NCBI GenBank assembly: GCA_016929195.1 | Contig: JAFGJG010000039.1 | Location: 1-39,102 of the forward strand | Source: Thermoleophilaceae bacterium | GTDB taxonomy: Bacteria; Actinomycetota; Thermoleophilia; Solirubrobacterales; Thermoleophilaceae | Direction: 5' to 3' | DNA: 39,102 bases | Part shown: positions 5,894 through 39,102 of the stretch, one piece after another | How positions within the stretch are numbered: the first letter of the stretch is position 1 | How the letters are laid out: each line of letters opens with the position of its first letter | Made by a program: the position numbers and the translations under genes | Notes under the pieces: model-generated | Seen by the model: only the letters and a program-made list of their open reading frames with translations | Databases searched by the model: none | Told to the model about the DNA's origin: nothing

Positions 5894-7912
5894 CTATCTC
5901 TGCGGCGTGATGTGATCGCGGGGGATCGCGAATTGCTCTTTCGGAGTCATCGCGGCTCGACCGGGACGGTTCGCGAGCCAGATCCGGAAGTCGTCCGGGG
6001 GCAACGGCGGGCTGATGTAGTAGCCCTGGGCCTGATGGCATCCGTAGCTGCACAGCAGCTCCCACGCTGCCTGGGTCTCGACTCCCTCGGCGACGACGTG
6101 TAGGTCCAGGTTGCGAGCCAGCTCGACCGTTGAGCGGACGATCGTGGCGTCGCCTTCGTCCGTGTCGATGTTCTTGATGAAGGAACGGTCGATCTTGATC
6201 TCCTGGACGTTCAGCCGCTTGAGGTAGGAGAGCGAGGAGTAGCCGGTGCCGAAGTCGTCGAGCGAGAGGGTGGTTCCGAGGGCGCTGAGGGCGGCGATGA
6301 TCCGGCTCGCGTGGGCGGGGTCGGCCATGATCAGGGTCTCCGTGATCTCGAGTCTCAGTCGGTCGGCGGGGAGACGGTGCTTGCCGAGCAGGTCGGCGAC
6401 CGTGGCCGGCAGGGTGTCGTCGGCGAGGTTCGTCTGTGAGAGATTGACCGCGACCGACAGGTCCAGGCCGTCCGCCCGCCAGCCTGCGCATTGTGAGATG
6501 GCCTTGTCCAGGACGGTCTCGGTCAGGCGAGGCATCAAGCCGAGCTGCTCTGCGATCGGGAGGAACTCGTCTGGCGGGACGAGCCCACGGATGGGGTGTG
6601 CCCAGCGCACGAGCGCCTCGACGCTGCGGACAGCGCCCGTCTTGAGGTCGGCCTTCGGCTGGTAGTGGACCGTCAGCCGGTCGTCCTCCAGCGCGGAGCG
6701 CAGCTCGGCCCCGAGCTCGAGCTTGGCTCGCGACGTGGCGTCGCGTTCGGGGGCATACAGGAGGTGGCTCGTCCGCTCGGCCTTCGCCCGGTACATCGCG
6801 ACATCGGCGTGCCTCACGAGCGTTTCGCCGTCTCGTCCGTGGTCGGGACAGATCGCGATGCCGATGCTGGCCCCGACCTGGAGCGCCAAGCCGTGGAAAT
6901 CGAACGGTCGGTCGAGTGCGTCCGCGATGCGCTCGGCCAGGCCGCAGACCGTGTCTGCGTCGAGCAGGGACCCCGAGCCGACCACGAGCGCGAACTCATC
7001 TCCTCCGATCCGCGTCAGCACGTCTCGGTCACGGAGCGCGCCCTGGAGGCGAGGCCCGACCATCTGGAGAACCTCGTCGCCGGCCTGGTGCCCGAGCGTG
7101 TCATTGATCTCCTTGAATTGGTTCAGGTCGATGACGAGGACCGCCATCCGAAAGCCTCGCTTCAGGGCGACCGCCACCTCTTCATCCAGGCAGTGCAGGA
7201 AGTGGCGGCGGTTCGCCAGCCCGGTGAGCTCGTCATGGTTGGCGTCGTGCTCACGCTGCCGGGCAAGGTCATCGGTCAGGCGTACCCGCCGCTCGAGTTC
7301 CTCCTGACGTACGGTGCCCGCCAGCGCCTGCTGGCGCTTCCGGTAGAACAGAATCAGCAGCGCGATCACTGCCAACGTCGCGCCGGCCAGGATCAGCCGA
7401 GAGGTCGTGGCCGCCCTCGAGTCGATCGAGCGAGCCTCGCGCGAGAGCCGCCCGGCCGTTGCGCTCAGCTGACGGCGCAACCGCGCGAAGGCCGGGTCCA
7501 CCTCCTGCTCGTCGACCTCACGCGCCGCGGCAGGGCGCGGCCGGCTGGGCGACAGCAGCGCGTACTCTCGCTCGAGCGCGTCCACATAGCGCTCGAACGA
7601 GGCGCCCAGGTCGCCGTCAGCAGTCGAGCCCAGAGACGCGATCTCCGTTCGCGCGCGGCTGATTACCCGCTGCGTCTCGTTGCTTCCCTCCACATCCACG
7701 CGGCCCTCGCTGATCGCACGCCACTCCAGCCCGTCGAGTCTGTTCGCCTGCGCCCCGAGGTGGGCAAGCGTCAGCCGCACATCGCTCATGCGTGTCGCTT
7801 CGTCGCGAAAATGCGTCACCAACGCGCCGGCGAGCAGTGCAACGAAGACCGCCGCGAAGAGCGGAACCAGAGGCAGCACCGTGCCTCGTAACTGACGACG
7901 ACCACTATTCAC
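5894..7912 (-). CDS. Membrane GGDEF-EAL cyclic-di-GMP synthase/phosphodiesterase
   Basis: A 672-residue protein from GTG 7912. Two membrane segments (about 11-33 and 172-192) enclose a ~135-residue extracytoplasmic helical sensor region. After a linker comes a GGDEF domain (about 220-375) with intact GGDEF near 306 and, five residues upstream, RDRD, an RxxD product-inhibition site. The EAL domain (about 395-655) keeps EAL (SVEALVRW near 433), NLSQTNL, ETLIMAD, DDFGTGYSSLSYLKRL, KIDRSFI and the VAEGVET motif, so all metal and catalytic positions I can check are present. Both activities are therefore possible, with net direction set by the sensor. It is monocistronic, with no ribosome binding site visible at the GTG. 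Confidence 0.95.
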   Translation of the reverse strand: MNSGRRQLRGTVLPLVPLFAAVFVALLAGALVTHFRDEATRMSDVRLTLAHLGAQANRLDGLEWRAISEGRVDVEGSNETQRVISRARTEIASLGSTADGDLGASFERYVDALEREYALLSPSRPRPAAAREVDEQEVDPAFARLRRQLSATAGRLSREARSIDSRAATTSRLILAGATLAVIALLILFYRKRQQALAGTVRQEELERRVRLTDDLARQREHDANHDELTGLANRRHFLHCLDEEVAVALKRGFRMAVLVIDLNQFKEINDTLGHQAGDEVLQMVGPRLQGALRDRDVLTRIGGDEFALVVGSGSLLDADTVCGLAERIADALDRPFDFHGLALQVGASIGIAICPDHGRDGETLVRHADVAMYRAKAERTSHLLYAPERDATSRAKLELGAELRSALEDDRLTVHYQPKADLKTGAVRSVEALVRWAHPIRGLVPPDEFLPIAEQLGLMPRLTETVLDKAISQCAGWRADGLDLSVAVNLSQTNLADDTLPATVADLLGKHRLPADRLRLEITETLIMADPAHASRIIAALSALGTTLSLDDFGTGYSSLSYLKRLNVQEIKIDRSFIKNIDTDEGDATIVRSTVELARNLDLHVVAEGVETQAAWELLCSYGCHQAQGYYISPPLPPDDFRIWLANRPGRAAMTPKEQFAIPRDHITPQR

Positions 7913-32807: not shown

Positions 32808-34748
32808 CTAGGCTCGCCGCGCGATTTCCGCGGCGAGCTTCTCGGCCAGCTCGGACACCGCCATCGCGCCGATGTCCCCCTCCCGGTGGCGGCGAACCGC
32901 GACCCTGCCCGCGTCCTCCTCCTTGTCCCCCACCACGAGCATGAAGGGGACCTTCTGGAGCTCGGCGTCGCGGATCTTGCGGCCCACCGACTCGGTGCGG
33001 TCGTCCAGCTCCACGCGCACGCCGCTCGCGGCGAGCTCGTTCGCGACCAGGCGGGCGTACGGCACGTGGCGGTCCGCGATCGGCAGCGCGATCGCCTGGA
33101 CGGGCGCCAGCCAGAGCGGCAGCTCGCCGGCGTAGTGCTCGATGAGGATGCCGATGAAGCGCTCGAACGAGCCCATCAGCGCCCGGTGGATCATCGCCGG
33201 GCGGTGCTCGGCGTTGTCCGCGCCCGTGTAGGTGAGCTCGAACTGCTCCGGCATGTAGTAGTCGAGCTGGACGGTGCCGAGCTGCCACGAGCGGCCGATG
33301 GTGTCGGTCATGTGGAGGTCGATCTTCGGCCCGTAGAACGCGCCGTCGCCCTCGTTCAGGTCGTACTCGAGCCCGCGGCTCTCGAGCGCGCCCTGAAGGA
33401 CGGCCTCCGCCTTGTCCCACATCTCCTCGGTGCCCACGCGCTTCTCCGGCCGGGTCGAGAGCTCGAGCCGCGGCTTGAAGCCGAACTGGTCGTAGATGTG
33501 GAAGCCGAAGTCGAGGCAGCGGAGAACCTCGTCCTCGATCTGCTCCTCGGTGCAGAACACGTGGGCGTCGTCCTGGGTGATGTGGCGCACCCGCAGCAGG
33601 CCGTGGAGGGTGCCGCTCGGCTCGTGCCGGTGGACGAGGCCCTGCTCGGCGAAGCGGATCGGCAGGTCGCGGTACGAGCGCGCCTCGCGCAGGTAGATCT
33701 GGCAGTGCGCGGGGCAGTTCATCGGCTTCAGGCCCATGGGCTGGTCCTCGATGTCCGTGAAGTACATGTTGTCGCGGTACACGTGCCAGTGCCCGGACTT
33801 CTTCCAGAGCTCGACGTCGTAGAGGATCGGGGTGCGCACCTCGGTGTAGCCGCGGTCCACGTTCGTGCTGCGCCAGAGCGTGGTCAGCTCGTTCCAGACG
33901 TGCGTGCCCTTGGGGAGCCAGAACGGCATCCCGGGCGCGACGTCCGAGAGCATGAACAGGCCCAGCTCCCGGCCGAGCTTGCGGTGGTCGCGCGCCCGCG
34001 CCTCCTCGAGCCGGCGCAGGTACTCCTCGAGGTCGTCCTTCGACAGGAACGCGGTCCCGTAGATGCGGGTGAGCATCTGGCGGCTCGCGTCGCCGCGCCA
34101 GTAGGCGCCTGCGACCGACGTGAGCTTGAAGGCGCCGATGCGCTTCGTGCTCGGTGAGTGCGGCCCGCGGCAGAGGTCCGTGAAGGGGCCGTTGCGGTAG
34201 AGCGAGACGGACTCGATGCCCTCGTCCCTGACGAGGTCCTCGATCAGCTCGACCTTGTAGTCCTGGCCCTCGGCCCGGAAGCGCTCGATCGCCTCGGCCA
34301 CCGGCAGTTCGGAGCGCTCGAACCGCTCGTCGGCCTTGATGTGCTCGCGCATCTTCTGCTCGATGCGCTCGAGGTCGTCGGACGAGACGGTCACGCCCTC
34401 CGGGAAGTCGAAGTCGTAGTAGAAGCCGTCGTCGATCGGGGGGCCGATCGAGACCTTCACGCCCGGGTAGAGCTCTGTCACCGCAGTGGCCAGCACGTGG
34501 GCCGCGTCGTGGCGGATCAGCCAGAGCGGGCCCATGCCGTCCTCGGGGGACTTGCCCGTGACGATCTCGATGCTCGCGCCGTCCGGCAGCGGCGCCGAGA
34601 GGTCGCGCAGCTCGCCGGTGCCGTTCTCGCTCACGCGGATCCCGAGCGCGGCGCGCGCGAGGCCCTCGCCGATGGCGCGGGCGGCGTCGGCGCCGGTGGC
34701 GCCGTCGGGCAGCTCGAGCGGGCTGCCGTCGGGGAGCTGGATCTTCAC
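32808..34748 (-). CDS. thrS: Threonyl-tRNA synthetase
   Basis: A 646-residue class II synthetase. The N-terminal TGS domain (about 1-62) and the editing domain (about 70-225, HDAAHVLATAV, GFYYDFDF, CRGPHSPST) precede the catalytic core. The zinc ligands that sense threonine are placed in MNCPAHC near 343, DDAHVF near 393 and IHRALMGS near 520, and motifs RHEPSGTLHGLLRVR and GSFERFIGILIEHY are complete. The C-terminal anticodon-binding domain ends in LAEKLAAEIARRA. GTG 34748 lies 22 bases after the glycosyltransferase gene, so both may share a promoter. No T-box leader is seen, as expected outside Firmicutes-like groups. Confidence 0.97.
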   Translation of the reverse strand: MKIQLPDGSPLELPDGATGADAARAIGEGLARAALGIRVSENGTGELRDLSAPLPDGASIEIVTGKSPEDGMGPLWLIRHDAAHVLATAVTELYPGVKVSIGPPIDDGFYYDFDFPEGVTVSSDDLERIEQKMREHIKADERFERSELPVAEAIERFRAEGQDYKVELIEDLVRDEGIESVSLYRNGPFTDLCRGPHSPSTKRIGAFKLTSVAGAYWRGDASRQMLTRIYGTAFLSKDDLEEYLRRLEEARARDHRKLGRELGLFMLSDVAPGMPFWLPKGTHVWNELTTLWRSTNVDRGYTEVRTPILYDVELWKKSGHWHVYRDNMYFTDIEDQPMGLKPMNCPAHCQIYLREARSYRDLPIRFAEQGLVHRHEPSGTLHGLLRVRHITQDDAHVFCTEEQIEDEVLRCLDFGFHIYDQFGFKPRLELSTRPEKRVGTEEMWDKAEAVLQGALESRGLEYDLNEGDGAFYGPKIDLHMTDTIGRSWQLGTVQLDYYMPEQFELTYTGADNAEHRPAMIHRALMGSFERFIGILIEHYAGELPLWLAPVQAIALPIADRHVPYARLVANELAASGVRVELDDRTESVGRKIRDAELQKVPFMLVVGDKEEDAGRVAVRRHREGDIGAMAVSELAEKLAAEIARRA

Positions 34749-34770: not shown

Positions 34771-35997
34771 TCAGAGCAGCTCCGCGAGCAGGCGCAGCTC
34801 GCGCTCGGCGGCGGCGGTCACGAGGAACCGCTCGCGGACGCGCTCACGACCCGCTCGTCCCATCTCCACGGCCAGGCCGGGATCGCGGACGAGGTCGACC
34901 AGCCGGGCCGCGGCGGCCTCGATGTCGTCCGTGAGGAAGCCGTCCACGCCGTTGCGAACCGCGAGCGGCAGCCCGCCGCCGGTCCCCCCGACCACCGGCG
35001 TCCGCTTCCAGAGCGCCTCGCAGGGACCGAGGTCGAAGCCCTCCGACAGCGAGCGCTCGAGCGCCACCCGCGCGAGGTGCTGGAGCGCGCCCACCTCGAG
35101 GCCGCCCAGGGACTCGTACGAGGTCAGGAGCACGACGCCGGGCGCGTCGCCCACGAAGTCGGAGACCTCCTTGGCCGCCTGCCACGCCTCGCTTGCGGCC
35201 GCGTCGAGCCGGGCGGCGAGCACGAGCTGGAGGTCAGGCTCGAACTCGCGCGCCAGCCGGAAGCACTCGATCGTCGAGTGCGGGTCGTCCCAGCGGTCGA
35301 GCTCGAGGAGGTGGAGGCAGAACGGGTGGTCGAGATCCACGCCGAGCGGCCGCACGACGCGTCCCGGCAGGCGTGGCTCGACCTCGATGTTGCGCGAGTC
35401 GAGCGGGTCGATGCCCGGCGGCGCGGCGCGGCCCTCCACGCCGGCCGGCAGGAAGGACTCGTCGGGCGCGAGCACGAGGTCGCAGCCGTCCGCCAGGTCC
35501 CGAACCAGGTCGAGCGCGGCGGGCTCGGCCGCCGCCGCGTTCACGTGGCAGTGCCAAACCAGCCTGGCTCCCGCCAGCCCCGCGGCGAGCGGCAGCGCGC
35601 CCGGGTCGTGGAGGACGACCACGTCGTGGGCGTCCCCCAGCCCCTCCGCCACCCGCGCGCACGCGTCCGCGTATGCGCGCCATTGCTCGCTCGTGATGGC
35701 GCTCTCGCCGCCCCGGACGCCGGTGTGGAGCGCGCCGGCCACGCCCCGCAGCTCCGGGTCCCCGAACAGCACGCGCCACTCGACCTGCGCCCCCGCGCCC
35801 GCCTGGAGCGGAAGCAGGCCGCCGAGCTGCTCCGGCAGGCGCCCGCGCGCCCCGGACACGGTCACGTGGAGGACGCGTGCGCCCCGGACGGCGCTCCCGG
35901 CCTCGAGGACCCCCTCCACGGCCCGGCCGCCGGCGGCAGGCGCGTAGTCCCCGGGCGGCCGCGGAGCCACCGCCATCGGCTGGAGGTCCGCGCCCAT
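34771..35997 (-). CDS. GT4 glycosyltransferase of the trehalose-synthase (TreT) type
   Basis: A protein of about 408 residues. It is a GT-B retaining glycosyltransferase. VWHCHVNAA, APPGIDPLDSRN, the mid-domain LELDRWDDPHSTIECF and LSEGFDLGPCEALWKRTPVVGGTGGG (with the family E-x7-E pair) match TreT (trehalose glycosyltransferring synthase), which joins NDP-glucose and glucose, rather than lipid or wall GTs. The family likeness is clear at the binding signature APPxIDPL; substrate is not proved. ATG 35997 is used; GTG 36045 would add 16 residues. The gene heads the run that leads to thrS, and a CRP-like palindrome lies about 70 bases upstream, which would suit a carbon-responsive gene. Confidence 0.8.
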   Translation of the reverse strand: MGADLQPMAVAPRPPGDYAPAAGGRAVEGVLEAGSAVRGARVLHVTVSGARGRLPEQLGGLLPLQAGAGAQVEWRVLFGDPELRGVAGALHTGVRGGESAITSEQWRAYADACARVAEGLGDAHDVVVLHDPGALPLAAGLAGARLVWHCHVNAAAAEPAALDLVRDLADGCDLVLAPDESFLPAGVEGRAAPPGIDPLDSRNIEVEPRLPGRVVRPLGVDLDHPFCLHLLELDRWDDPHSTIECFRLAREFEPDLQLVLAARLDAAASEAWQAAKEVSDFVGDAPGVVLLTSYESLGGLEVGALQHLARVALERSLSEGFDLGPCEALWKRTPVVGGTGGGLPLAVRNGVDGFLTDDIEAAAARLVDLVRDPGLAVEMGRAGRERVRERFLVTAAAERELRLLAELL

Positions 35998-36068
35998 TGG
36001 CGGCAGCGTACTTCCGGCCAGCGCTGCCGGGCGAGCGGCCGCCACGTGGCAAACGTCACGCGCTCCGC

Positions 36069-36088
36069 AGTGTGAGCCACGTCACACT
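36069..36088. promoter_or_regulatory. CRP-like palindromic operator
   Basis: AGTGTGA, a six-base spacer and TCACACT form a perfect 7+7 inverted repeat, whose core TGTGA-N6-TCACA is identical to the binding consensus of the CRP family (including actinobacterial GlxR/Crp). It lies between the TreT-like gene (minus) and the transposase gene (plus). Its centre is about 40 bases upstream of the predicted transposase start, close to the position of a class II site. Confidence 0.55.
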
Positions 36089-36105: not shown

Positions 36106-36111
36106 TATACT
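36106..36111 (+). promoter_or_regulatory. Candidate -10 box of the transposase gene
   Basis: TATACT matches TATAAT at five of six positions and ends six bases before ATG 36118. It lies downstream of the ATG at 36103, so a transcript from this box could not use that codon; it would begin at or next to ATG 36118 and be leaderless. GTCACA at 36081-36086 is a weak -35 at 19 bases. Confidence 0.45.
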
Positions 36112-36117
36112 GTGGGC

Positions 36118-37053
36118 ATGGCCGCGAACGACAGAAACAACCCGATCCGCCAACAGTCGTCCGACTCGGACTACTCGCTGATCGAGTTCATGAAGAACTA
36201 CCCCGACGACGCGGCCTGCCTCGACGCCCTCTGGCGCGAGCGCTTCGCCCCTGACGGCCACACGGCCGACTGTCCCCGCTGCGAGAAGCCCCGGCGCTTC
36301 CACCGCACCAAGACCAGGGCGTCGTACACCTGCGATTCCTGCGGCCTTCATATCCACCCCATGAAGGGGACGATCTTCCAGAAGTCCACTACGTCCCTCC
36401 ATCTGTGGTTCTACGCGATGTACCTCGTCGCCAGCACTCGCTGCGGCATCTCCGCGAAGCAGCTTGAGCGCGAGCTGGGCGTGACCTACAAGACCGCCCA
36501 CCGGATGATGAAGCTGATCCGCACCGACCTCATGAAGGACGACGGCGACGAGCCGCTTTCCGGCGATGTGGAGATTGACGAGACCTCCTGGGGAGGCCGG
36601 CCGCGCAACAAGCACAGGACCCGCGCGGAGGCTGCTGCGTTCCGTGAGGCCAAGCCGACGATCCTCGGAATGGTCGAGCGCGGCGGGCGTCTACGGCTCC
36701 GGGTGATCCCGTCGCGCCGTGGTCCCGCCCTTAGTAGAACCGTGAAGGCCAACGTCAACCCGGCGTCGATGATCTTCACCGACGACTGGCAGGCGTACAA
36801 GCCGCTGCGCTACGACTTCCTGGGCCACCGGGTCATCAACCACTCCCGGGGCATGTACGTCGATGGCGACACCCACACGAACACGATTGAAGGCGTCTTC
36901 GGAAACCTGAAGACCGGGATGCGCGGGGCGTACAAGAAGGTGTCGCCGCGCTACCTCCAGTCCTACCTGGACGAATTCGCGTGGCGCTACAACGCCCGCC
37001 ATGAGCCTGGGGCGATGTTCTCCCAGCTGCTCGCGCGAGCCTCGCGCAGCTAG
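36118..37053 (+). mobile_element. IS1595-family transposase gene
   Basis: A 311-residue DDE-type transposase (start ATG 36118 chosen from the -10 box; ATG 36103 would add five residues). Residues about 50-75 form a zinc ribbon, CPRCEKPRRFHRTKTRASYTCDSCG-type, then MKGTIFQKSTTSLHLWFYAMYL, the helix-turn-helix-like ISAKQLERELGVTYKTAHRMM, the first catalytic Asp in DVEIDETSWGG, the second in IFTDDWQAYK, and the last acidic/Asn block HTNTIEGVFGNLKTGMRGAY with YLDEFAWRYNAR. This is the ISXO2-like pattern of IS1595. The frame is intact. I could not find convincing terminal inverted repeats or a target duplication, so the element's ends are not defined. Confidence 0.85.
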
Positions 37054-37222: not shown

Positions 37223-37501
37223 ATGACCCCTCTGGAGCGACCAAATCCTGACGAGGATGTCCCTCGCGTCTACGTCAACGCGGTCAACCTGCAGGGGGGC
37301 CTGTACGACGTGACCCTGGATCTTGCGCACCGCGTCGGGAACGAGGATGTCGCCTGGACGATGCGCGTCACGATGAGCTGGGAGCACGCCCGGGCACTGG
37401 CGGATGCCCTCAGTGAGGCGACGACTGAGTACCAGGCCGACATCGGCGAAGTTCGTGATGTCGAGCGGGCCGCTGCACGGCTGCTTGGGGAGGAAGGATG
37501 A
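37223..37501 (+). CDS. DUF3467-like protein
   Basis: A 92-residue protein from ATG 37223. RVYVNAVNLQGGLYDVTLDLAHRV, followed by a second strand MRVTMSWEHARALADALSEATTEYQADIGEV, matches the DUF3467 pattern (a V-x-M/S-x-x-HAKAL helix after a Y-N-V strand). The role of the family is unknown. Its stop overlaps the start of the next gene by four bases (ATGA), and a GGAAGG ribosome binding site lies before that start, so the two are coupled. Confidence 0.7.
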   Translation: MTPLERPNPDEDVPRVYVNAVNLQGGLYDVTLDLAHRVGNEDVAWTMRVTMSWEHARALADALSEATTEYQADIGEVRDVERAAARLLGEEG

Positions 37502-37749
37502 CCCCGGTGACCAACGCACGCCCTCGAGGTGCGAGCCGGACCATCGGCGCGGCGGAAACGACGATAATTACGAGCAGCACCGTAGAGGGCTGGACCGAAA
37601 CAGTCGCAATCATTGGCGACCAGCCCTTCATGCAGGAAATAAAGAGAAGCCTGGAAGAGATCGACAGTGGCGAGCGGCTCTACTCCTTCGAAGAGATCTT
37701 CGGCGAGCCGCCGAGCCTCAGCGACGACGCGGACGACGACGAAGACTGA
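37498..37749 (+). CDS. Probable antitoxin
   Basis: An 83-residue protein from ATG 37498. The first half has a beta-like TIITSSTVEGWTETVAIIGD stretch; the second half has a helix EIKRSLEEIDSGERLYSFEEIFGEPP, which resembles the toxin-binding part of RelB/Phd-type antitoxins, and an acidic tail DDADDDED. The next gene downstream encodes a RelE/ParE-fold toxin, which supports the call. The tail is encoded by the same bases as the N-terminal extension of the toxin. Function is inferred from position and shape. Confidence 0.65.
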   Translation: MTPVTNARPRGASRTIGAAETTIITSSTVEGWTETVAIIGDQPFMQEIKRSLEEIDSGERLYSFEEIFGEPPSLSDDADDDED

Positions 37750-38080
37750 CCGAGTCCCGGTCCGCTTCACGCCTACTGCCAAGACCCATGCAAAGGGCCT
37801 TCCACAGCTGAAGGCGCGAATAGGGAACCGAGTGCTCGCCTTGGAGCAGCCGGGAGCTGCCTCCCAGCTCGGAATTCAGTTGACAGGCCCCCTCAAGCGC
37901 TGCCGTAGGGTCAAGCTCGGGTCGGCCTATCGGATGGTCTACAAGGTGCGTGAGACCGACGTCGTGATCGTCGCTATTGGGCTCAGGAAAGACGAGCAGG
38001 TTTACGCGGATGCCCTCAAAGCTCTGGCTGAGGTGACTTCCGTGCCGCCTGGCAACGGCGGCAAGCGTCCTAGCCCTTAG
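37667..38080 (+). CDS. RelE/ParE-type toxin with nested start
   Basis: A 137-residue protein. The domain from about residue 31 (PVRFTPTAKTHAKGL, LALEQPGAASQLGIQLTGPL, RRVKLGSAYRMVYKVRETDVVIVAIGLRKDEQVYADAL) fits the RelE/ParE fold: basic strand, Y-R-x-V-Y and a late VVIVAIGxRxD. In this frame the only start codon before the domain is GTG 37667, which is 83 bases inside the antitoxin gene and has a well-placed ribosome binding site GGAAGAGA (37653-37660, six-base spacer). The resulting N-terminal ~29 residues are Ser/Thr/Arg-rich and are not part of the family. No other ATG, GTG or TTG is available nearby. Confidence 0.7.
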   Translation: MASGSTPSKRSSASRRASATTRTTTKTDRVPVRFTPTAKTHAKGLPQLKARIGNRVLALEQPGAASQLGIQLTGPLKRCRRVKLGSAYRMVYKVRETDVVIVAIGLRKDEQVYADALKALAEVTSVPPGNGGKRPSP

Positions 38081-38247: not shown

Positions 38248-39102
38248 GTGGGACGGGCATCGCTAGAGGGCGTGGAGTTGAAGCTAGAGCGGGCGAAGGA
38301 TCACTTCCACACGCTCAGCGAATCCATAACCACGTTCCTTCGCGACCCAAAGACGTACTCCACCGTCTTTCAGACCAACAAGGAACGCCGGCCAGTCCTT
38401 GTGATGGAGGACATCAAGGACCCGAGCCCAGAGTGGGATGTCTTCATAGGCGACTGCGTCCACAATCTGCATTCGGCGCTGGACCATCTCGCCTTCCAGC
38501 TCATGGTCGGCAACACCCCGCCGCTCCGGCAGCGCGAATTCATTACCTCCTCTGCATTCCCGATCTTCCTCAGCGGCCCAAGGTTCGCGAAGCTTCGAAG
38601 CAAGGGGCCGAAACGAGGACAGCCGACCCCGGACAGCGGGCTTCACAAGATCCTGGGGGTCTCCGCCACGGCTCGGACAATCATCGAGCGGTTGCAGCCG
38701 TACCACCGCAGGAAGAACCCCGGCACGCGCAGCCTCTGGGAGCTTCAGGAACTGTCGAATGCCAATAAGCACCGCCTCTTCCCTCTCGTCTACTCCTCGT
38801 TTGAACTCGGGCAGTTCGAGATCCTCGGAAGCGTGCCGTTCGCACTTCACAACTTCGAATCCACTCCGGGGCGACTCAAGCGAAACGCAGTAATCGCTCG
38901 ATGGGCCTACGTCACCGTCCCGACACCCATATCCATGAAGGTGAACGCCGAGCTGGTGACCGACATAACGTTCAACAAGGGTCCGCGGACGCCCTACCCC
39001 GTGCGCGGAAGATCCGTCCTCGCCACCCTCCACGGCATCATGCGGTTCATCGCGGCTGAAGTGGTACCGCCCCTCGCCGACGACCTGGGCGTCCCATTCA
39101 AC
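38248..39102 (+). CDS. Conserved hypothetical protein (3' end outside window)
   Basis: An open frame from GTG 38248 to the right edge, 285 residues visible. GAGAGGG lies seven bases before the GTG, a good ribosome binding site. The protein has VFIGDCVHNLHSALDHLAFQL near residue 70, a motif I associate with a family of uncharacterised bacterial proteins, then LWELQELSNANKHRLFPLV, and a late VNAELVTDITFNKGP strand region. The rest is an alpha/beta mixture without a known catalytic signature. Its codon usage is less GC-extreme than the housekeeping genes (many ATA, AAT, CTT and GAA codons), consistent with recent transfer. Function unknown. Confidence 0.75.
   Translation, partial: MGRASLEGVELKLERAKDHFHTLSESITTFLRDPKTYSTVFQTNKERRPVLVMEDIKDPSPEWDVFIGDCVHNLHSALDHLAFQLMVGNTPPLRQREFITSSAFPIFLSGPRFAKLRSKGPKRGQPTPDSGLHKILGVSATARTIIERLQPYHRRKNPGTRSLWELQELSNANKHRLFPLVYSSFELGQFEILGSVPFALHNFESTPGRLKRNAVIARWAYVTVPTPISMKVNAELVTDITFNKGPRTPYPVRGRSVLATLHGIMRFIAAEVVPPLADDLGVPFN

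Follow-up and report, generated by a model that had tools for sequence, protein, structure and literature searches.

An IS1595-family element probably inserted into and rebuilt a CRP-type operator, and its relatives recur at such sites

Results

The window, meaning the whole stretch of DNA that was analyzed (39,102 bases), is the entire contig C48 of a 193-contig draft genome (G000). Its end at 39102 falls within a run of plus-strand open reading frame (ORF). The features relevant to this study are the following:

32808–34748, minus strand: thrS, the synteny anchor on the treT side, whose orthologues were used in tblastn
34771–36045, minus strand: treT-like glycosyltransferase gene (TreT_GT1 domain), start at ATG 35997 or GTG 36045; its promoter region contains the operator
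36069–36088, no strand: 20-base palindrome AGTGTGA-GCCACG-TCACACT, a hybrid of host operator (to 36082) and element tip (from 36083)
36071–36086, no strand: exact CRP-type core TGTGA-N6-TCACA
36075–36082, no strand: 8-bp target-site duplication AGCCACGT, repeated at the opposite end of the element, on C77
36083–36107, plus strand: left terminal inverted repeat CACACTTATGTCTTCAAGGTATGTA, the CACAC tip of which equals a CRP half-site
36106–36111, plus strand: −10-like hexamer TATACT, 6 nt before the ATG; the operator occupies the −35 place, with no recognizable −35
36118–37053, plus strand: transposase of the IS1595 family (DDE_Tnp_IS1595), probably with a leaderless mRNA
37223–37501, plus strand: passenger gene, DUF3467, with a homologue within the complete element of G092
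37498–37749, plus strand: small 83-aa ORF ahead of the ParE-like gene, matching no family in the Pfam scan
37667–38080, plus strand: ParE-like toxin passenger, Pfam match spanning aa 32–109
38248–39102, plus strand: passenger ORF running off the contig, with homologues within the complete elements of G010, G018, and G080

The palindrome is centered at 36078.5, which is 39.5 bases from the transposase ATG (36118) and about 81 bases from the treT-like ATG (35997), for which the upstream GTG at 36045 is a possible alternative. These values agree with the first-pass annotation, which had described a palindrome with an exact CRP core roughly 40 bases before a transposase start and 80 before a TreT-like ATG; the domains found in the two neighbors match it as well. 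The transposase gives a Pfam match to PF12762 at E 2.6e-37, and its N-terminal zinc ribbon (PF12760) scores 24.7 bits, just under the cutoff of 25.4. An Rfam scan of the window returned 0 matches.

The IS1595-family element starts at 36083 and passes the contig end; it is at least 3.2 kb long and has passenger genes. Its continuation beyond 39102 is supported by the homologues of the DUF3467 gene and of the last ORF inside complete elements elsewhere. Because the Pfam match leaves out the first residues of the ParE-like ORF, its true start is probably later than 37667. By its position alone, the 83-aa ORF is a possible antitoxin, and 37498–38080 would then form a possible toxin–antitoxin passenger pair; the G092 element has a PIN-domain gene instead.

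TGTGA-N6-TCACA has a single exact match in the window and none in 100 dinucleotide-preserving shuffles of it. The 20-base form, with up to one mismatch, was likewise matched in 0 of 100 shuffles, and on these two counts a chance match was rejected as the origin of the palindrome. When one mismatch was allowed, the 16-base form appeared at least once in 25 of 100 shuffles, so that exactness is the standout feature. Among relatives, the exact pattern is present in 52 of 61 genomes and the reversed control pattern in 1 of 61. G048 has four identical copies of TGTGACAAAGATCACA in about 1 kb (C10:74805–75828), probably a repeat. The window's own genome contains three exact sites. Two of them, one in the window and one at the left-hand end of contig C77, share all 16 bases. 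The third, TGTGATGTAGTTCACA (G000 C192:1813–1828; L003 1500–1515), adjoins, on the upstream side, a gene that by eye resembles a TetR-type regulator.

Absence of a CRP-family regulator had been named as a refuting finding in the first-pass annotation, and such a regulator is present: the genome encodes a CRP/GlxR-like protein and cyclase domains (eight matches). The CRP-like protein, on contig C171, has 230 aa with cNMP_binding and HTH_Crp_2 domains; among solved structures, CRP/FNR proteins such as GlxR-type 4byy and 3d0s of M. tuberculosis are the closest to it in sequence. In E. coli CRP, R, E, and R at corresponding places of the recognition helix contact TGTGA; here the helix reads SRESASR, with the R-E-R residues conserved. 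A second, weaker match to a CRP/FNR-type HTH is located at C73. A close CRP homologue was found at E 1e-20 in 10 of 11 genomes searched, the exception being G083, which is 84% complete. The CRP consensus stated in two sources is TGTGA-N6-TCACA or close to it (PMC4005916, PMC4117774).

The other end of the element, on contig C77, reads GACATAAGTGTG-AGCCACGT-CACAGTCGG, with host CACAG outside the duplication. GACATAAGTGTG, which precedes the palindrome there, is the inverted counterpart of CACACTTATGTC, which follows it in the window, and the similarity extends inward. The order at the left junction is host GTGTG, duplication AGCCACGT, and element CACACTTATG; at the right junction it is element CATAAGTGTG, duplication AGCCACGT, and host CACAGTCGG. 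Terminal inverted repeats and an 8-bp target duplication, as expected of an IS1595-family element, are present. An untouched host operator is ruled out, since the bases from 36083 onward are the element tip. Host and element both contribute to the palindrome: the left half and core derive from an older operator, and the right half, CACAC, is the element tip.

The right end on C77 adjoins an rpf-like gene (PF06737), followed by MBL-fold, aminotransferase, and phosphate-transporter (PiT) genes. Two copies of a repeat of about 45 bases, AAGTGTCCTGACTA..GGTTGCAGAGCAACCACAGGGCAGGACGCTT, lie behind the rpf-like gene (L002 832–880 and 964–1010). In G018 and G014, thrS and the treT-like, rpf-like, MBL-fold, aminotransferase, and transporter genes are contiguous in that order, and the element is absent. 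From this intact gene order, we infer that C48 and C77, two contigs without overlap, are neighbors parted by the element.

The element-free treT/rpf locus carries the exact palindrome TGTGACCCATCTCACA in G018 and CGTGACGCACGTCACA, with one mismatch, in G014; the half-sites are kept, and the cores have changed. A second locus, between MMPL and TetR genes, provides a similar comparison. G024 has an uninterrupted exact site there, TGTGACGTCGCTCACA, a site that the element occupies in G018 and G003. Judging from these orthologous element-free loci, the CRP-type operator predates the element. A purely element origin of the palindrome is rejected, because the core varies between elements, being the duplication of each, and because element-free loci have the palindrome. 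As a second refuting finding, the first-pass annotation had named presence of the palindrome at all element copies and nowhere else. The palindrome is present at both element ends and in the relatives, but also at element-free orthologous loci, so that the refutation fails in that form.

Relatives of the transposase were collected from three sources: 232 genomes of the order (26 matching at E 1e-60), a scan of genome contigs (31 loci), and viral contigs (4 loci); the genomes are all drafts, and the sample sizes are small. At about 70% identity or above, relatives share the end type and the palindrome geometry. Searching 20 loci for inverted repeats with an 8-bp duplication gave 7 complete clade elements, all in GTG-N8-CAC. 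Together with our own element and those of G006, G185, and L167, they make up the 11 elements with both junctions. In G000, G006, and G185, the element ends are on separate contigs, and in G185 they are paired by the duplication alone.

The outer flanks are GTG-N8-CAC in 10 of these 11 elements. The original site was GTGA-N6-TCAC in 6 and exactly TGTGA-N6-TCACA in 4 (G000, G006, G003, and G018). The exception is L167, a complete clade member located in GGCGG-ACGATTCT-GCCCT, with no GTG/CAC. Among the ten GTG-N8-CAC targets, A precedes the core in 7 and T follows it in 9; the targets in G083, G192, and G185 each lack one A/T position of the CRP consensus, and that in G092 lacks the A. For background, ten sequences with 171,463 positions contain 81 occurrences of GTG-N8-CAC, an overstated value as the elements are included. 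As a control, 51 loci of other IS1595 clades yielded 12 elements with an exact duplication and inverted repeats, and 0 of the 12 are in GTG-N8-CAC.

Three of these 12 distant elements are situated in the center of other palindromes, with 4/4 outer symmetry (L119 and L126, about 5930–5965; L121, about 1820–1856). The palindromes, GTGA-CTAAATAG-TCAC, GTGA-CTAGATGG-TCAC, and GTCA-ACGTAGGT-TGAC, may be operators of other regulators.

The transposases with these ends form one clade, with tree support of 100/100. A phylum-wide sample of 396 genomes, searched at E 1e-120, returned our own member and none further, and a class-wide search of 399 genomes for the end pattern gave 7 with a match. Two cases were left out of the counts: a single end in G022, CGTG-ACGAACGT-CACGC, with no transposase nearby, and a clade transposase without a recognizable end (G079 C56).

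The treT/rpf operator is occupied in two genera, in G000 and G006, in opposite orientations. The element of our own genome has its left end toward treT and its right end toward rpf, an arrangement that is reversed in G006. The opposite orientations therefore indicate independent insertions, the same orthologous operator having been hit twice. The duplications also differ (AGCCACGT versus AGCTCGGT), and the tree, whose inner branches are weakly supported, does not pair the two transposases as sisters. The insertions in G003 and G018, which share locus and orientation and have sister transposases with different duplications, may be one shared ancestral event. Going by the junctions, CRP-type operators are the specific and repeated targets of the clade to which the element belongs.

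Flanking genes were called by a simple codon-position rule and then scanned with Pfam. The targets lie beside rpf-like genes in G000, G006, and G083, DPBB-domain cell-wall genes in G192 and G185, and MMPL genes in G003 and G018; neighbors of the remaining targets include formyltransferase, HD-domain, or DXP-synthase genes. Thus, 5 of 10 targets have a neighbor of the rpf-like or DPBB type. In M. tuberculosis, CRP (Rv3676) controls rpfA, a resuscitation-promoting-factor gene, according to the cited accounts of its regulon (PMC4117774, PMC4005916). The first-pass annotation had suggested that, through the CRP-type site, the treT-like gene or transposition might be linked to a carbon/cAMP regulator. 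Both the host-operator and the element readings hold, the carbon/trehalose link is weak, and a regulon link to rpf-type (resuscitation-factor-like) cell-wall genes is better supported.

A −10 hexamer, TATACT or TATAAT, lies 6–7 bases before the transposase ATG and is constant in the 9 of 11 members that the search pattern scored; G080 and L167, missed by the pattern, show the same −10 and spacing by eye. If transcription begins at the A of the ATG, the operator center is at −39.5 or −40.5 in the same 9 members. In class II CRP-activated promoters, the site is centered near −41.5. The rebuilt left operator, about 40 bp before the probably leaderless transposase start, would have near class II geometry, and this geometry may point to activation.

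The element end of the clade has no −35. The same place is TTGACA in sister elements and TTGACT or TTGACA in distant ones. On the simplest reading, the clade would have exchanged its −35 for a CRP half-site that the target completes, and the transposase promoter would thereby be CRP-activated. The sister clade (L146, L151–L156, and L143) carries TGTCAA-N5-TTGACA, with a variable core, just upstream of its transposases, with TTGACA serving as the −35; this palindrome may be either target or element sequence. Right ends and duplications were not found for these 8 loci in three attempts plus pairwise comparison.

Discussion

We propose, with a probability of about 0.8, that an IS1595-family element of a clade specific for CRP-type operators has split and rebuilt a pre-existing operator of this kind. 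A CRP-type operator, TGTGAGCCACGTCACA, would have lain between the divergent treT-like and rpf-like genes. The element would have inserted at its center, duplicating the 8 bp AGCCACGT, and its CACAC inverted-repeat tips would have taken the place of the separated half-sites, leaving a full operator to each host gene. The element would at the same time gain an operator for itself, some 40 bp ahead of the leaderless start of its transposase. CRP would bind the rebuilt sites, and the left one would activate the transposase promoter in class II fashion. The transposase may read the target DNA itself or follow bound CRP. The sequences compared show the duplication, an operator that was there beforehand, the rebuilt palindromes, and the repeated targeting. 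From the same sequences, we would infer CRP binding at the rebuilt sites, CRP-driven expression, and CRP-guided targeting.

It is very improbable that the entire palindrome is the element's own, be it a long inverted repeat or a regulatory site inside the element, and unrelated to a host operator. Its presence at both element ends and in relatives would fit such an origin; against this, the N6 core is different in every element and identical at both ends of each, as a target duplication would be, the palindrome is present at element-free orthologous loci, and L167 has the element tip without the outer half. A chance sequence, or the site of another regulator with the same half-site (an FNR/CRP paralogue or TetR-type repressor), is unlikely, if less so. 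The operator is recognized here by its sequence, and the weaker HTH match at C73 could point to a second regulator. However, the shuffles gave 0/100, half-sites are conserved in orthologues with diverged cores, the pattern is enriched over its reverse in relatives, and the R-E-R contact residues persist in the CRP homologue.

The strongest competitor, to which we give somewhat less than an even chance, is that the transposase itself recognizes TGTG-N8-CACA, which resembles its own ends, that CRP operators become targets merely by containing this sequence, and that CRP takes no part in transposition or transposase expression. The element tip has the same sequence as the target half, 4 of 10 targets depart from the CRP consensus at A/T positions while all ten keep GTG-N8-CAC, and some distant IS1595 elements (3 of 12, with 4/4 outer symmetry) are also in palindrome centers. 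Direct recognition of this kind is harder to reconcile with the preference for the flanking A (7/10) and T (9/10) in GC-rich genomes, with the location of half of the targets beside rpf-type or DPBB cell-wall genes, and with the replacement of the −35 of sister elements by the half-site. A wider reading, that this clade hunts the CRP regulon, is tentative. The transposase would be directed to CRP operators, perhaps by the bound protein, the operator would be rebuilt on both sides so that host regulation is kept, and the element would use one operator as its own class II activator site, its movement following the cAMP state. Similar hunting of other operators by related clades is possible: TGTCAA-N5-TTGACA adjoins the sister clade, and among the distant elements 3 of 12 are centered in palindromes.

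The DDE_Tnp_IS1595 domain, terminal inverted repeats, and passenger genes liken the element to the IS1595 family (ISXO2-like transposase), and the 8-bp direct repeats ascribed to the IS1016 subgroup of that family are found in it as well (PMC12561309). The family description in that source gives A/T-rich duplications and lists no palindromic target, whereas the target here is an operator rebuilt by the tips (PMC12561309). Within the open-access literature, we found no description of an operator-targeting IS1595 element whose tips rebuild the operator.

The ISAjo2-type "dif site hunters" of the IS1202 family likewise have a fixed position and target, at the site of a host DNA-binding protein, and their authors suggest transposase contact with bound XerC (PMC10132070). 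As described there, these elements differ in having another transposase family, a 5-bp duplication, and insertion in a single orientation, 5 bp to the side of the XerC site, and their target is a recombination site, in contrast to the center of a transcription operator (PMC10132070). Our element is distinct from the IS1202 type, with an IS1595-type transposase and a different target sequence.

IS5 at the E. coli glpFK promoter also brings an insertion sequence and CRP together at one promoter; in that report, however, operator-bound CRP blocks insertion and IS5 enters a CTAA site, whereas here the operator is the target (PMC5493358). The system of CRP and rpfA in M. tuberculosis resembles ours in its actinobacterial CRP, similar consensus, and rpf gene, the operator here lying between rpf-like and treT-like genes (PMC4117774, PMC4005916). 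It differs in that the present host belongs, by sequence kinship, to another class of Actinomycetota, and in that the system is known here only from sequence.

Conclusions

Insertion sequences usually damage the promoters that they enter. The present element appears to choose the site of a global regulator, leaving a working copy on each side and using one itself. If true, this would be a low-cost way of living in promoters, with transposition tied to a host signal. For bacteria without a known regulon, the element would also serve to mark CRP sites naturally, and the question of whether a transposase may follow a bound transcription factor would become directly testable.
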